A stretch of DNA of 37,814 nt, taken from positions 1 to 37,814 of the forward strand of contig JAFZDY010000038.1 in assembly GCA_017560945.1 (NCBI GenBank), written 5' to 3'. Below the pieces are notes generated by a model that saw only the letters and a list, made by a program, of their open reading frames with translations, was not told where the DNA came from and ran no database searches. Origin of the DNA: Bacteroidaceae bacterium (lineage in GTDB: Bacteria > Bacteroidota > Bacteroidia > Bacteroidales > Bacteroidaceae). This document shows positions 3,342-8,392 of this stretch, piece by piece (the stretch's first letter is position 1; each line of letters begins with the position of its first letter). A program made the translations under genes and the position numbers.

Positions 3342-3374
3342 TATTTCTAAATATTTCTTAAAAACATTTCATCT

Positions 3375-3388
3375 ACTATTAAAATAGT
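3375..3388. promoter_or_regulatory. Dyad overlapping the -33 box, candidate repressor operator
   Basis: ACTATT (3375-3380) and AATAGT (3383-3388) form a 6+6 base inverted repeat with a two-base spacer, abutting the TTG at 3388-3390 of the blaI-like promoter. Its position is what autorepression by the BlaI-like protein would need. It does not match the staphylococcal TACA/TGTA operator. Confidence 0.4.
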
Positions 3389-3418
3389 TGCAAGTTATTT
3401 TTAGGTCATTTACCTTTG
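3388..3418 (+). promoter_or_regulatory. Promoter of the blaI-like gene
   Basis: TTG (3388-3390), a 20-base spacer and TACCTTTG (3411-3418) match the Bacteroidetes promoter consensus. The start site would be near 3425, upstream of the ATG at 3478, so any start before 3425 is excluded. Confidence 0.85.
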
Positions 3419-3477
3419 CCGACGTTAAGAGTGAAAAACTTAAAAGTAAAGAACCTAAAAAATCATATTCTAAAGTT

Positions 3478-3897
3478 ATGGATACCGATAACAAACACCG
3501 AAGCCTCACCAAGTCGGAATTGCACTTGATGAATCTTTTGTGGGACAAGGGCGAAGCCACCATCAACGAATTGTTGGAGATGATGCCCGAGCCACGCCCG
3601 GCCTACACCACCACACTCACCGTCATGCGCGTGCTCGTAAAGAAAGGTGTTGTAGAGGCCACCCCACAAGGCAAGGCACACATCTACACCCCACTCATGA
3701 CACGCGAAGAGTACACACAAGGTTTCATGGAGGAGACACGACACACCTTGTTCAAGGGTTCCTTCTCGAGCCTGCTCTCCTTCTTTGCCGAGCGCGAGCG
3801 ACTGGCTGCTGACGAGGTGGAGCACATCATAGCCCTACTGAGAAAGAATCAGACAGCCCCACCCCCAACCCCTCCCTCTATGGAGGGGAGTGAATAG
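3478..3897 (+). CDS. BlaI/MecI/CopY-family repressor
   Basis: A 139-residue DNA-binding repressor. Residues ~8-75 form the family winged helix (LTKSELHLMNLLWDKGEATINELLE, TTTLTVMRVLVKKGVVEA). Residues ~76-123 are the dimerisation part, which in staphylococcal BlaI/MecI is where the partner protease cuts. It is the first gene of a module with a secreted protein and an M56 BlaR1-like protease. Its last residues (TAPPPTPPSMEGSE) are encoded by a G/C-rich hairpin repeat also found at 9147-9183, so the tail is probably repeat-derived and not functional. The start follows the promoter position. Target genes are probably this module itself, by analogy with the bla/mec systems; no beta-lactamase is present. 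Confidence 0.93.
   Translation: MDTDNKHRSLTKSELHLMNLLWDKGEATINELLEMMPEPRPAYTTTLTVMRVLVKKGVVEATPQGKAHIYTPLMTREEYTQGFMEETRHTLFKGSFSSLLSFFAERERLAADEVEHIIALLRKNQTAPPPTPPSMEGSE
3857..3888 (+). repeat. G/C-rich hairpin repeat, copy 1 (inside blaI-like 3' end)
   Basis: The C-rich strand is plus. Four C-runs (CCCC, CCCCC, CCCC, CCC at 3857-3876) satisfy a G-quadruplex pattern on the minus strand, followed by a CCCTCC...GGAGGG-type hairpin. The core CCCTCCCTCTRTGGAGGGG is shared with the copy at 9147-9183, which lies in the same orientation relative to the gene it ends. Confidence 0.8.
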
Positions 3898-3976
3898 TTG
3901 TCCACTTTTGTGTGATTTTTCATCCACGGCATCATTTTCACACTTTTGGGTGACACACACATATTTGCTAAAACTA

Positions 3977-3984
3977 TACTTTTG
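3977..3984 (+). promoter_or_regulatory. Candidate -7 element for the secreted-protein gene
   Basis: TACTTTTG matches TAnnTTTG, 53 bases before the ATG at 4037. No TTG is found at the usual -33 position. The heptamer ACTTTTG also occurs at 3904 and 3942, so the interval 3898-4036 has three copies spaced by 38 and 36 bases. A regulated, activator-dependent or weak promoter is possible. Confidence 0.45.
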
Positions 3985-4036
3985 CAACAACAATAAAAAA
4001 AAGAATTATAGTCACAAATCATAAATCACAATCCTT

Positions 4037-5098
4037 ATGAAAACGAAACAAACTTACAGATTCGCAATGTTGGCCATGCTTCTTTGTGCCACATTCTATA
4101 CCAACCGTGCTATGGCACAAACTCCCGATGAAGGTGTGAGAGTAGCCTTTGCCACCACCATTACCATAGACGAGTCGGCCAACAACAATACTGAAGAGGA
4201 AGACCCCTACAAGGAGTTTGTCTCTCCACAATGGGGACTGAAGTGTCCCGAGGGCTACATCCGAATGACCGAGTACAAGGAATTGGCCAAGACGGATGCT
4301 ACCGCACGTGAGCAATTAGATGAATTGACCTCGTTGATGGACAAGTACAAGGCCAAGCGACAAAAGATGATGAAAAGAGCCTATAAGAAGATTACCACCC
4401 GTCACCCCGACGTAGAGGCAAAGGCGCAGAAGTATGCCAACCGCCTGTTCAAGCGTGCCAAGATTGAGATGATGGACTTAGGCGCTTATCGCCTCCCCGA
4501 TGGCACCATCGTGATAGAGGATGACAAGAGCGAACAATCATACGTGAAACGTCCTGTAGAGTGGCTCCAGGGAACTAACACTGACGAAGGTCGCCCCCTC
4601 AACAAAGCACCTATCCTGGAGCGCGACAAGTCACCCAACTACGATGCGCACAACGAGCAAACATGGCCCGTATACACCGATGTACAGACCGTGAGCGATG
4701 AGGAATATATGGATTTCCTTAGGAATGATGGAAAACCAATGGTATATCGTGGAAAGGATTGCACCTACGTGGTAGAGTATTGGGGACATCTGCACTACCA
4801 TCACTGGTTCCACCCCTGCTCCGATGACAAGTTGATAGACCCCAAAACTGGTACTCAATACATGGTGCGCTATTTGGAGCACTACCCCATGGATACTTAC
4901 TATTGGGTTCATAATGTAACAGGAAAATACATCCGTCAAGTCTATGTATATCCTCCTCTTCCCGAAGATGTAACCACCGTAGACTACATCCCTGGAAAGA
5001 TTCCCGCAGAAGAAAAGCTAAGCAACTCTTCTCCTTACCAAGAATACAAGGGTCTGAAAGTGCAAGACCTCAGACAAAAAGGTAAAGTGATATATTAA
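4037..5098 (+). CDS. Secreted protein, paralogous to the C-terminus of the next gene
   Basis: A 353-residue protein with a Sec signal peptide (basic start, hydrophobic core ~9-22, probable cleavage after AMA near 27-28) and no lipobox. I do not recognise the family. Residues ~62-353 align end to end with residues 764-1049 of the downstream M56 protein. Shared blocks are SPQWGL, (M/L)TEYKE.AKTD, ERDKSPNYDAHNEQTWPVYT, RG.DCTYVV, (H)WF.P and PPLP.DVTTVD.IPG, and both proteins end in VY. Residues ~100-155 are Lys/Arg-rich and helical. It lies between the repressor and the sensor-protease and is probably regulated by them. By analogy with BlaR1, whose sensor domain is homologous to a secreted beta-lactamase, it may bind or process the ligand that the sensor detects. 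Its activity is unknown. Confidence 0.85.
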   Translation: MKTKQTYRFAMLAMLLCATFYTNRAMAQTPDEGVRVAFATTITIDESANNNTEEEDPYKEFVSPQWGLKCPEGYIRMTEYKELAKTDATAREQLDELTSLMDKYKAKRQKMMKRAYKKITTRHPDVEAKAQKYANRLFKRAKIEMMDLGAYRLPDGTIVIEDDKSEQSYVKRPVEWLQGTNTDEGRPLNKAPILERDKSPNYDAHNEQTWPVYTDVQTVSDEEYMDFLRNDGKPMVYRGKDCTYVVEYWGHLHYHHWFHPCSDDKLIDPKTGTQYMVRYLEHYPMDTYYWVHNVTGKYIRQVYVYPPLPEDVTTVDYIPGKIPAEEKLSNSSPYQEYKGLKVQDLRQKGKVIY

Positions 5099-5123
5099 GT
5101 AAATTACATAATTCATAATTACC

Positions 5124-8100
5124 ATGACATCCCCCATTCTACTCATAGCAGGTCGTTTCTTGTTGGCTTCGACCTTGTTGATGGCTCTTTACTGGGTCGT
5201 ATGGCGCAAGCAATCCACCCATCGAGCCAAGCGTATGTATCTGCTTTCCATGCCCATAGTAGCAATAGCCATTGCTCTATTGCAAGTGGAGGTGTACCAG
5301 CCCGACCCCATGGTGATAGAGGTGGAAGTAACGTCTGCTCCCACCCTTTCCCAAGTGGAAGAGAGAGTAGATAACCTTTCCCAAAATTTTTCCCTGTTGG
5401 AAAAAAATTTTTTCCTAACGGAGAAAAAATCTGAGGCAGGTAATACCCTCTCGAAAGAGGCTGAAAAGGTAATGACCGAGGACACCTTGTCTGCTCCCCT
5501 TCAAGAGGAGAAGAAGGGGTGGTTAGCGTCCCTATCGCTCGACTCCATCCTTGGCATTGTCTATGTCGGCGTAGTACTCATCCTTTGCATCCCCTTCGTG
5601 GTAAACTTGGTGCAATTGCGCCAACTTCGTCGCAAGGTATCAATCGTCAATAAGGACGAGGAGAACCACATCTGCATCTTCACAGGTCAGGTGGTGGAGG
5701 CTCCCTTCTCGTTCTACCGCTACATCTTCATGCCACTCTCGCTCACCGATACTCAGCGTCGCGTGATACTTACCCACGAGCGAGCACACATCCTGCACCG
5801 ACACTACCTGGACGTGTGGATGGCCGAGGCCGTGACACGCCTCCTTTGGTGGAATCCCTTCGTATGGTGGGCGCGTGCCGAGTTACGCAACATACACGAG
5901 TTCGAGGCCGATGCCGACGTACTGACTTCGGGCGAGGACGTGTATATGTATCAGACAACCCTCATCGAGGAGGTGATGCACGGCGATGTGGTGATAGCCA
6001 ACGGATTCAACCACTCCTTCATACGTCGTCGCTTCATTGAGATGCTTCAGAGTAGCAATCGCCACATGACCACCTTAGGCAAAGCCGGCTCTATGGCTTG
6101 GATGCTACTAATAGCAGCTCTGATGTGTTGCACCGTGGGCGAGGCGGAAGTCATCTACAAGGAGACGAAACTCACCAACACAAACGACAATGGGGAATGG
6201 CATGAAGCCGAGTCCAAGCCCCTGTCGGAATATTTGCCCGACATGGTTACTAACCTGAGTGATGAAAGTGTCGAACCATTGATTCAAGCCCTTAGCATCA
6301 TAAACTCCATAAAAGAAGTGTCTCCAGAGGAATACGAGGAGTTGAAGAAAGCATACCCTGCAGGTACTATACCCAGCATGGAGAGCATCAACAAAAGCGT
6401 ACGCGAGATAAAGGATTCGCTGGAAGCACAAATATCGAAGGATATATGGGAAACGTACTTCGAGATGAACAAGACCTTGCGTAAGGAAATGAGAGACAAA
6501 GGGCTCGACACCCTCAGTAGTTCAAAGGAGCCCAAAGACAAGGTCTATCACTTCAATGTGCAGGGGAACCCTACCTTAATCGATGCAAATGGGAACATTC
6601 ACGAGTATACCATCAAAGGTAACGAAATCTCCGAAGAGGACATTGAAATTCTCATAAATAGCACATCACAATTCACTTTGGATTCCATGGAGGTTCAAGG
6701 AGCAATTATTAGTGCATTGGGTAGTTTTTTCAATAGTATGTTCGGTTCACTGATTGGCACTTTTACACCCTTAGAAAAAGAGACATACGATTCGATATTG
6801 AGTCTGTTTTCCCTTGGTGAAGAGGCACCAAGTTTGGAGGAGTTGAATAAACAATTGGAGTTGTTGAGAGATTCTATCCAAATGATGACGAACACATTTT
6901 CTTTAAAGCCAGGCGAAGTATATGAAGTTCCTATGGATGTTTACGTAGAGACTATATCCCCAGTACTTACTCCTGAATCAAAAATAAAGAACGACAATGC
7001 CTTGCATAGCTTTTTCTATCATTGGTTTGGATTAAGCGAGGATGTCAAAGTTCGTTCAAAGGAAGAATATGAAGCCATTTTGAAAAATTATCCTGAATTA
7101 CCCACATATTCTGAATACACCGAGATATGGACAAACCAAATAAATGAACATTCGGACATGATGGATGAAGCCTTGAAAAATATGGATACTTACATACGTA
7201 TCCAAGTGGAAGAGGCTCTTAATGAACATGGAAAATTTATTCGACGCGATAAACCATTGGAAATAGAAATTACGTACACAGTCAACAATAACGACAATCG
7301 GACAGACATTGTACATATTTTCAAAAAGGAACCTTATTCTTCTGGGGTAACACAGGAAGTTTCCGAAACAATTCATAACGAAGAAAAAAGTTCATCTAAC
7401 AAGAAGGACGAGGACATCATCTCTCCCCAATGGGGACTGGTGTTGCCTAAAGGCTCCATCCGCCTGACCGAATACAAGGAAATGGCTAAAACAGATGACA
7501 CGGTACGAAAGCAATACGACCAGTTGATGAATTGCATCCGCAATGCACAAGCCCTGCGCAACGATGCTTTGACAAATGCCTTTGGCAAAAAGCGTTCGCG
7601 TTACGTAACGGTGGAAGAATCGGTAAAGGAGAAAGTACGTAAACTTTTCCAAGATGCAAACATTGAAATGTTGGAGTTGGGTGCCTATCGTCTCCAAGAT
7701 GGCACCATAGTGATGGAGGACGACAGGCTCAACCTGATGCCACAAAGCGTGAACTATCACCACGGAACCACCGACCGAAGCGTACTCTTGCGCAACCAAG
7801 CCCCCACCATGGAGCGCGACAAATCGCCCAACTACGATGCACACAACGAGCAGACATGGCCCGTGTACACCAATGTGCAGAAGGTAACTAAGGACGAGTA
7901 CAAGGCTGAACCTCAAGTGTTCCGTGGCGAGGATTGCACCTACGTGGTCAAATACTATGCCATCTCCTTTGATTTCCATTGGTTCTATCCCAATTCAAAG
8001 GACATGTTGGTTGATCGTAAGACGGATGACCAATACATGATACGTTATAGAGAACACTTCCCCCTGGACACCTACCTGTGGATACATGGCCAAGAAGGAG

Positions 8101-8273
8101 AATACATACGCATGGTAGATGTATTTCCACCCCTTCCCAAGGATGTGACCACCGTGGACTTGATACCTGGGGAAATCCCATTCGGGATAAAGCTAAGCAA
8201 TGCTTCTCCCTATCAGCAATACGAGAATTTGAAGGTTCAAACCTTGAATAAAAACGAGAACATAGTATATTAG
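5124..8273 (+). CDS. BlaR1-like M56 metalloprotease-sensor with a very large extracytoplasmic region
   Basis: A 1049-residue membrane protein. Predicted transmembrane helices are at ~4-23, 39-55, 141-163 and 322-338, the BlaR1/MecR1 topology. The zinc protease sits in the loop between helices 3 and 4: HERAH at 218-222 is a complete HExxH, and Glu in HEFEADAD (258-265) is the likely third ligand, so the protease looks active. In BlaR1 systems this domain causes loss of the partner repressor after ligand binding outside. The extracytoplasmic part is unusual: residues ~340-763 match nothing I recognise and are more AT-rich at the DNA level than the flanks, and residues 764-1049 are a paralogue of the secreted protein encoded 26 bases upstream. 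No penicillin-binding motif (SxxK) sensor domain or TonB C-terminal domain is apparent. A terminator follows at 8316. Confidence 0.92.
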   Translation: MTSPILLIAGRFLLASTLLMALYWVVWRKQSTHRAKRMYLLSMPIVAIAIALLQVEVYQPDPMVIEVEVTSAPTLSQVEERVDNLSQNFSLLEKNFFLTEKKSEAGNTLSKEAEKVMTEDTLSAPLQEEKKGWLASLSLDSILGIVYVGVVLILCIPFVVNLVQLRQLRRKVSIVNKDEENHICIFTGQVVEAPFSFYRYIFMPLSLTDTQRRVILTHERAHILHRHYLDVWMAEAVTRLLWWNPFVWWARAELRNIHEFEADADVLTSGEDVYMYQTTLIEEVMHGDVVIANGFNHSFIRRRFIEMLQSSNRHMTTLGKAGSMAWMLLIAALMCCTVGEAEVIYKETKLTNTNDNGEWHEAESKPLSEYLPDMVTNLSDESVEPLIQALSIINSIKEVSPEEYEELKKAYPAGTIPSMESINKSVREIKDSLEAQISKDIWETYFEMNKTLRKEMRDKGLDTLSSSKEPKDKVYHFNVQGNPTLIDANGNIHEYTIKGNEISEEDIEILINSTSQFTLDSMEVQGAIISALGSFFNSMFGSLIGTFTPLEKETYDSILSLFSLGEEAPSLEELNKQLELLRDSIQMMTNTFSLKPGEVYEVPMDVYVETISPVLTPESKIKNDNALHSFFYHWFGLSEDVKVRSKEEYEAILKNYPELPTYSEYTEIWTNQINEHSDMMDEALKNMDTYIRIQVEEALNEHGKFIRRDKPLEIEITYTVNNNDNRTDIVHIFKKEPYSSGVTQEVSETIHNEEKSSSNKKDEDIISPQWGLVLPKGSIRLTEYKEMAKTDDTVRKQYDQLMNCIRNAQALRNDALTNAFGKKRSRYVTVEESVKEKVRKLFQDANIEMLELGAYRLQDGTIVMEDDRLNLMPQSVNYHHGTTDRSVLLRNQAPTMERDKSPNYDAHNEQTWPVYTNVQKVTKDEYKAEPQVFRGEDCTYVVKYYAISFDFHWFYPNSKDMLVDRKTDDQYMIRYREHFPLDTYLWIHGQEGEYIRMVDVFPPLPKDVTTVDLIPGEIPFGIKLSNASPYQQYENLKVQTLNKNENIVY

Positions 8274-8315
8274 TAACAATACTTTTTTGAGTTTAATTTA
8301 GTAAAATCGCGCGCA

Positions 8316-8356
8316 AAAGCTGGAGGACATCGTGAGATGTTTTCTGGCTTTTTTTT
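8316..8356 (+). terminator. Terminator of the blaI-M56 module
   Basis: A 16-base stem (8316-8331 with 8336-8351) using several G-U pairs, loop GTGA, followed by a run of T to 8356. Confidence 0.85.
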
Positions 8357-8392
8357 CACACAAACATTTCGTCAATACACGACATATATACT

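Follow-up and report, generated by a model that had tools for sequence, protein, structure and literature searches.

The closest described systems are the staphylococcal BlaR1/BlaI and MecR1/MecI pairs, in which a BlaI-type repressor stands beside a four-helix M56 protein whose HExxH motif follows helix 3 and precedes helix 4, and whose C-terminal region is extracytoplasmic. The regulated secreted enzyme of staphylococci is a class A beta-lactamase, and is therefore not a close paralogue of the class D-like sensor. The resemblance of the BlaR1 sensor to class D enzymes is described in PMC7593790, a cut in BlaI between N101 and F102 in PMC9834060, and direct cleavage of BlaI by BlaR1 in both. 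Detailed knowledge of BlaR1-type proteases concerns their role as antibiotic sensors, but an M56 match was found in 218 of 299 related genomes; positions drawn from this survey and from the domain survey of the same genomes are those among the matches listed.

A locus built on this plan was analysed in a contig of a Bacteroidaceae bacterium (JAFZDY010000038.1, assembly GCA_017560945.1), and the whole stretch of 37,814 nucleotides is called the window. The genome (a 2.35 Mb assembly, 82% complete) was labelled G000 and the window G000:C37; the labels of loci (L), genomes (G) and contigs (C) are internal to this analysis. The locus was composed of genes for a BlaI-type repressor, a secreted protein and an M56 protease with a C-terminal paralogue of that secreted protein, and such operons, apparently self-regulated, were found in some gut/rumen Bacteroidales. 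The related domain copies in sensor and secreted protein suggest recognition of the same signal. We favour, tentatively and with somewhat less than even confidence, a self-regulating proteolytic switch of BlaR1 type, in which a new domain pairs sensor with effector and both proteins share one signal. In the part of the literature listings that was covered, the module was not described, and the search returned no signal for M56 proteins of related genomes; PMC12578637 was a false lead for the module.

Gene products and operator

The three open reading frames (ORFs) of the + strand were separated by 139 and 25 bases (Table 1). The repressor belonged to the BlaI/MecI family, with a Penicillinase_R winged-helix domain above cut-off and MecI structures matched by sequence. 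The secreted protein had a single hydrophobic segment (residues 9–23) followed by AMA-Q, gave no lipobox match in a pattern search, and had nothing above cut-off in Pfam or NCBIfam. The M56 protein had hydrophobic helices at residues 5–23, 39–57, 142–160, and 321–339, and a weaker segment at 526–544, by hydropathy. The HERAH motif was located at residue 218, between helices 3 and 4, and residues H218, E219, H222, and E259 were invariant in an alignment of 32 M56 sequences. The protein thus combined a Peptidase_M56 domain, HExxH with a downstream Glu, and four predicted membrane helices, as expected of an M56 peptidase. Both HExxH and ExxAD were present in 50 of 53 M56 ORFs, with the exception of L056 and L084 (cut or short) and L053 (variant second motif). 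A profile of 32 relatives matched the BlaR1 cryo-EM chain 8exp_A (E 5.3e-4) over the helices and protease only, with HExxH and the downstream EADR aligned.

Table 1. Features of the operon in the window
Feature	Position	Strand	Basis or remark
Candidate BlaI operator, dyad ACTATTAAAATAGT (ACTATT-AA-AATAGT)	3375..3388	+	Touches the -33 region of the blaI promoter; conserved in relatives, genome-unique
-7 box TACCTTTG, Bacteroidota-type, of the blaI promoter	3411..3418	+	Sequence; kept in relatives
blaI-type repressor, 139 aa from ATG	3478..3897	+	Penicillinase_R E 2.2e-30; MecI 1sd6 E 2.1e-11
Secreted protein, 353 aa, with signal peptide, a charged part that is helix-rich by eye, and the core (residues ~196-318)	4037..5098	+	Hydropathy, paralogy, domain profile
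M56 (BlaR1-type) membrane metalloprotease, 1049 aa	5124..8273	+	Peptidase_M56 PF05569 E 3.5e-13
HERAH zinc-site motif, M56 residues 218-222	5775..5789	+	Invariant in 32 sequences
Secreted-protein paralogue at the M56 C-terminus, residues 764-1049, core ~898-1014	7413..8270	+	50% identity; domain-profile match

The secreted protein and the M56 C-terminus shared 160 identities in 321 positions (50%, E 7e-106). The matching part of M56 consisted of a charged section, helix-rich by eye (residues ~764–890), and the core domain, whose counterpart in the secreted protein is listed in Table 1. The original prediction, made from the sequence of this locus, had proposed a trio of blaI, secreted protein and M56 protease with intact HERAH, and the ORFs, the Penicillinase_R and Peptidase_M56 matches, and the hydropathy all agreed with it. 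The paralogy of the last ~290 sensor residues with the secreted protein was borne out as well, and so was a BlaR1-like plan around a domain that gives no beta-lactamase/PBP match. The placement of the sensor domain after the fourth helix, as in BlaR1, was right in its general plan, whereas the matching part began ~425 residues past helix 4.

The candidate operator was analysed in 40 dereplicated upstream regions. The dyad was common to eight of these, compared with at most two for any dyad in 100 controls, which were plain letter shuffles. In all eight, it started 36 bp before the start of the TAnnTTTG box, which is the Bacteroidota -7 consensus. The dyad was aligned across ten loci, with a variant in L008. 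The exact dyad occurred at one site in the window genome, before blaI; the operon therefore probably regulates mainly itself. Six of 15 genus genomes likewise had one exact dyad each, just upstream of a blaI beside M56, while the reversed control pattern gave one site in the 15 genomes together. A dispersed regulon was rejected on the single exact operator; three one-mismatch sites in the genome, one within an ORF, one 6–7 bases upstream of an ORF that we take to be ilvC-like, and one between two other ORFs, are probably due to chance, and the reversed control at one mismatch gave one site in the same genome. Several Prevotellaceae-type loci had ACTA-N6-TAGT just downstream of the -7 box. In addition, five of the 40 upstream regions shared another dyad (AACAT, 7-base gap), a number that no shuffle reached. 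Before the secreted-protein gene, TACTTTTG at window positions 3977–3984 may be a second -7 box; it has no dyad and, by eye, poor spacing to a -33 element.

The proposed switch would operate as follows. BlaI would bind the dyad and repress its own operon, as the conserved, genome-unique site suggests. The M56 protein is predicted to pass the inner membrane four times and to hold a cytosolic zinc protease and ~710 periplasmic residues ending in the domain. A periplasmic signal meeting the sensor domain would activate the protease, and active M56 would cut BlaI near F103, a residue that aligned with MecI F102 (1sd6) and appears to suit the hydrophobic P1′ position of the cleavage site. Derepression would then raise the level of the secreted protein, the main output, which would bind the same signal via the same domain and clear or buffer it, closing the loop like a beta-lactamase. 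Repression by BlaI and cleavage of BlaI by M56 are expected by homology to the MecI/BlaR1 systems. We infer a sensing role for the domain and an effector role for the secreted protein. The effector role is favoured by the operator, which points to the operon itself, and by stand-alone genes that occur without adjacent blaI/M56 in Paraprevotella, at the place that blaI-M56-S (S, stand-alone secreted-domain gene) occupies in L080. A shared ligand would account for the domain in both proteins, and fusion of the domain to the sensor fits direct contact equally.

Recurrence with blaI and M56

A scan of GTDB genomes with the domain gave 44 loci. Two belonged to the strains Paraprevotella xylaniphila and P. 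clara, and the other 42 came from uncultured Bacteroidales or metagenome-assembled genomes (MAGs). Near-copies were present among them (L059/L060 and L067/L068/L071), and the locus and genome surveys overlapped (for example, L055 = G012, L059 = G014, L062 = G006, and L064 = G002). MAG contigs ended early at L008, L033, L056, L063, L064, L078, and L092. The blaI and M56 pair was found in 39 of the 44 loci, and a stand-alone domain gene accompanied the pair in 35. The domain was present on M56 in 31 of these 35 trios. Among the remaining four, L056 was cut by the contig end, L084 and L094 had short or split frames, and L065 had an M56 without the domain. The ORF following the split M56 frame of L094 held the domain. 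Gene order varied while the trio persisted: the window's group had blaI-S-M56, Prevotellaceae-type loci had blaI-M56-S, and L057 had S-blaI-M56. The domain gene was seen with no M56 in view in the remaining five loci (L063, L074, L078, L092, and L098), L092 being at a contig edge. In the Paraprevotella loci L063, L074, and L098, it directly followed a gene that is presumably PNPase-like, and the same place in L080 held blaI-M56-S.

In a 150-genome survey, the pair was close by in 13 of 24 loci (window, L008, L034, L035, L037–L042, L044, L049, and L053), and among ten loci of tandem-domain proteins in only one, L049. The close subfamily is therefore strongly tied to blaI/M56, and the superfamily only weakly. 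Adjacency to the pair had been named in the original prediction as a test, with mostly pair-free occurrence as the contrary outcome; the expected recurrence was seen in the close subfamily and did not extend to the tandem-domain relatives.

The four loci in which blaI stood with a domain-fused M56 and no stand-alone gene was seen beside them (L059, L060, L062, and L064) bring in a close rival of the shared-signal reading, which we consider possible. The secreted protein would be a regulatory partner whose domain docks on the periplasmic region of M56, holding the protease off or turning it on, and the sensor-borne copies would be a built-in partner. M56 had a sensor-type domain followed by a secreted-type domain in these loci, although the contig of L064 ended 176 bases past M56. 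Furthermore, a loose pattern found a lipobox-like signal in 28 of 42 stand-alone proteins, so that a partner anchored as a lipoprotein on the periplasmic face of the outer membrane may lie within reach of the sensor. Docking is opposed by the lone stand-alone genes without adjacent blaI/M56, although M56 matches occurred elsewhere in three such genomes, and by the window itself, which has both the secreted and the sensor-borne form.

Identity and evolution of the shared domain

The core domain, of ~120 residues, ended the region shared by the two proteins. Across 43 relatives, nothing in Pfam, in NCBIfam or, by sequence, in PDB rose above noise, immunoglobulin-like beta-sandwich folds included. 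Sub-threshold matches of the domain to Phage_scaffold, Vault, and ATP_synt_b, the best ones among the relatives (Glyco_hydro_68, 0.0022 in two; aroD, 0.006 in two), and the PDB matches 7p9b (0.024) and a designed ubiquitin (0.087) were all rejected as noise. The domain profile was built iteratively from the loci themselves, which inflates the E-values of members. It gave some match in 93 of the 299 relative genomes, with remote matches to an N-terminally placed domain in secreted proteins of larger size. When ten remote-match proteins were scanned, seven had thioredoxin-type hits (that of L108 below cut-off), L104 and L115 had none, and L110 was a kinase with TPRs. In the last case, from a same-order genome (L110:2936-5317), the remote match lay between the kinase and the TPR repeats.

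A direct profile comparison of the domain with ten TlpA-like N-terminal domains gave a probability of 99.1 and an E-value of 1e-18. DUF5643 matched four of these ten domains below threshold (best 1.8e-5). Of 29 places that an independent search gave for DUF5643, at least 6 coincided with places listed for the domain profile. DUF5643 (PF18705) was rejected as the family of the domain, with none of the 299 genomes reaching the gathering cut-off. On the profile comparison and the DUF5643 matches, the domain is placed as a branch of a wide Bacteroidota envelope superfamily that includes TlpA-like and tandem-domain secreted proteins. The profile search suggested with the original prediction thus returned no known family above cut-off and only this remote relationship; of the "unrelated, unrecognised domain", the lack of a beta-lactamase or penicillin-binding protein (PBP) match held, with the correction that the domain belongs to this wider superfamily.

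The wide distribution allows the domain to be a generic Bacteroidota envelope module without a matched ligand, shared merely because it is common. The relatives at the N-terminus of TlpA-like proteins and in tandem-domain secreted proteins, as well as the number of genomes with some match, agree with this. We regard it as improbable in view of the tie of the closest subfamily to blaI/M56 and of L057, where the secreted and sensor copies of one locus were sisters (100/99).

A system that does sense beta-lactams, through a penicillin-binding domain that went unrecognised, would agree with the presence of BlaI and M56, the signalling parts of bla/mec, and the secreted protein does hold SxxK strings and one KTG, which were unaligned with any known active site. 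No beta-lactamase or PBP domain was matched by the domain in Pfam or in PDB by sequence, or by the three window proteins in Pfam, in agreement with the original prediction, and the M56 C-terminus had neither SxxK nor KTG. The window M56 scored 30.3 bits against NF000326 (BlaR1 beta-lactam sensor equivalog), whose cut-off is 400. Beta-lactam sensing was rejected on these sequence grounds as the leading explanation, and we consider it very unlikely.

In a 94-row domain tree, a weak split (78) separated a sensor type (27 M56 ends, three first domains, and the detached piece of L094) from the rest. The M56 proteins of L059, L062, and L064 carried a sensor-type and then a secreted-type domain, and the M56 ends of L044 and L058/L061 lay outside the sensor type on long branches. 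The window's M56 end grouped with secreted domains, in sets of nine rows (98) and of 13 rows (97). In a 13-row tree (302 columns), secreted and M56-borne copies interdigitated and were not sorted by gene. Well-supported branches required all three label changes, and a single change was sufficient in none of 200 bootstrap trees, while shuffled labels gave as few changes in 48 of 500 trials; a gain followed by two losses may account for the three. A tree constrained to keep the M56 copies of the window, L055, and L057 together was rejected (AU p 0.0026, post hoc), the AU tests having been picked after the tree was seen. This mixed phylogeny would fit copying on several occasions, gene conversion, or ancient duplication with later losses. 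A mirror-tree comparison of sensor and secreted domains in 25 of 27 triads, leaving out two near-copies, gave a partial correlation of 0.49 that none of 2000 permutations reached; other gene pairs gave 0.58–0.60, which makes the result uninformative on co-evolution and also speaks against docking. A truncated third copy resembling the end of the secreted protein (79% identical) was found at a contig edge of the window genome (G000:C45:92636-92887, - strand, L005), its context lost.

The window operon lay between recF/dciA and 5-formyltetrahydrofolate cyclo-ligase, with the same flanks in L055 and L062. The recF and cyclo-ligase matches were ~320–395 bp apart in G001, G003, G008, G009, G010, and G011, which leaves room for little beyond a presumed dciA, and 5.7–7.8 kb apart in G000, G012, and G006. 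Of the other six genus genomes, four had the two matches on different contigs and two had no recF match. The site looks empty in six genus genomes and filled by differing module versions in others. A speculative and rather unlikely extension is a Bacteroidales counterpart of the bla plan that is independent of beta-lactams: a family of sensor-proteases would time and again replace its sensor with the domain of the secreted protein under its control, and sensor and effector would thereby keep pace with a single periplasmic signal as it changes. If true, receptors would have evolved in an unusual way, through a domain that moves between an effector and the sensor belonging to it.

Several observations weigh against a paired-domain switch with one shared signal. 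The window's own two copies were rejected as sisters (p 0.00015), and therefore parted before the window/L055 split. In Prevotellaceae-type loci, the sensor domain was only a remote paralogue of the secreted domain; the close secreted/sensor paralogy claimed earlier stood for the window's group, to which such identity is special, and not beyond it. Secreted proteins of 831–848 aa with an MG2 match, above cut-off in L062 only, followed the domain-fused M56 in L059 (4133-6679) and L062 (7833-10328), so the outputs of the switch may vary between loci. L008 (G004) had the order blaI-S-M56 and yet only a variant dyad, and L128 (G005:C61) had the same operator and blaI beside recF with an M56 (883 aa) devoid of a domain copy. 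BlaI may also have targets with divergent operators. Among 53 BlaI proteins, 26 had F at P1′ and 27 had L. Finally, the lone-gene genomes of L063, L074, and L078 (G060, G156, and G171) had two M56 matches each, on other contigs where listed, so a lone stand-alone gene may have a distant M56 partner.

Comparison with known systems

The N-terminal domain of TlpA-like proteins was related to the window's domain by profile comparison; in contrast to such proteins, the window proteins had no thioredoxin match in Pfam. The Bacteroidota BlaI-M56-TonB pairs (L033 and L100) have a blaI-M56 pair like that of the window. They differ in that M56 had TonB_C in both pairs tested and no domain copy was detected in it. 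The pairs of L100 and L102 have a neighbouring TlpA-like protein with a remote domain copy, and L099 and L101 look alike. L033 is the second blaI-M56 pair of the window genome (G000:C45, L033:7100-10287, - strand), with an M56 of 919 aa and two TonB_C stretches. In L099–L102, large secreted proteins with the remote copy lay beside other blaI-M56 pairs, and thioredoxin hits were obtained in L100 and L102.

In acidobacterial DUF3738/TIGR03435 proteins, some of which are fused to M56, a secreted domain occurs both alone and behind M56. They are a precedent for this arrangement and differ from the window's domain by name; the literature search returned nothing for DUF3738 and nothing joining TIGR03435 with M56 or BlaR1.

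The original prediction had described the bla/mec plan as a sensor homologous to secreted class D beta-lactamases, which was correct for the sensor and not for the staphylococcal effector. With a dyad that is conserved and occurs once in the genome, the switch lends itself to testing, and since output and sensor share the domain, the output protein could serve directly as bait for the signal. The window shares with BlaR1/BlaI and MecR1/MecI the BlaI-type repressor beside a four-helix M56, the position of HExxH, and the C-terminal extracytoplasmic region. In contrast, no class D beta-lactamase-like sensor was found in the window M56, a spacer of ~425 residues separates helix 4 from the matching part, and the secreted partner belongs to no recognised enzyme family but is a paralogue of the sensor's own end.

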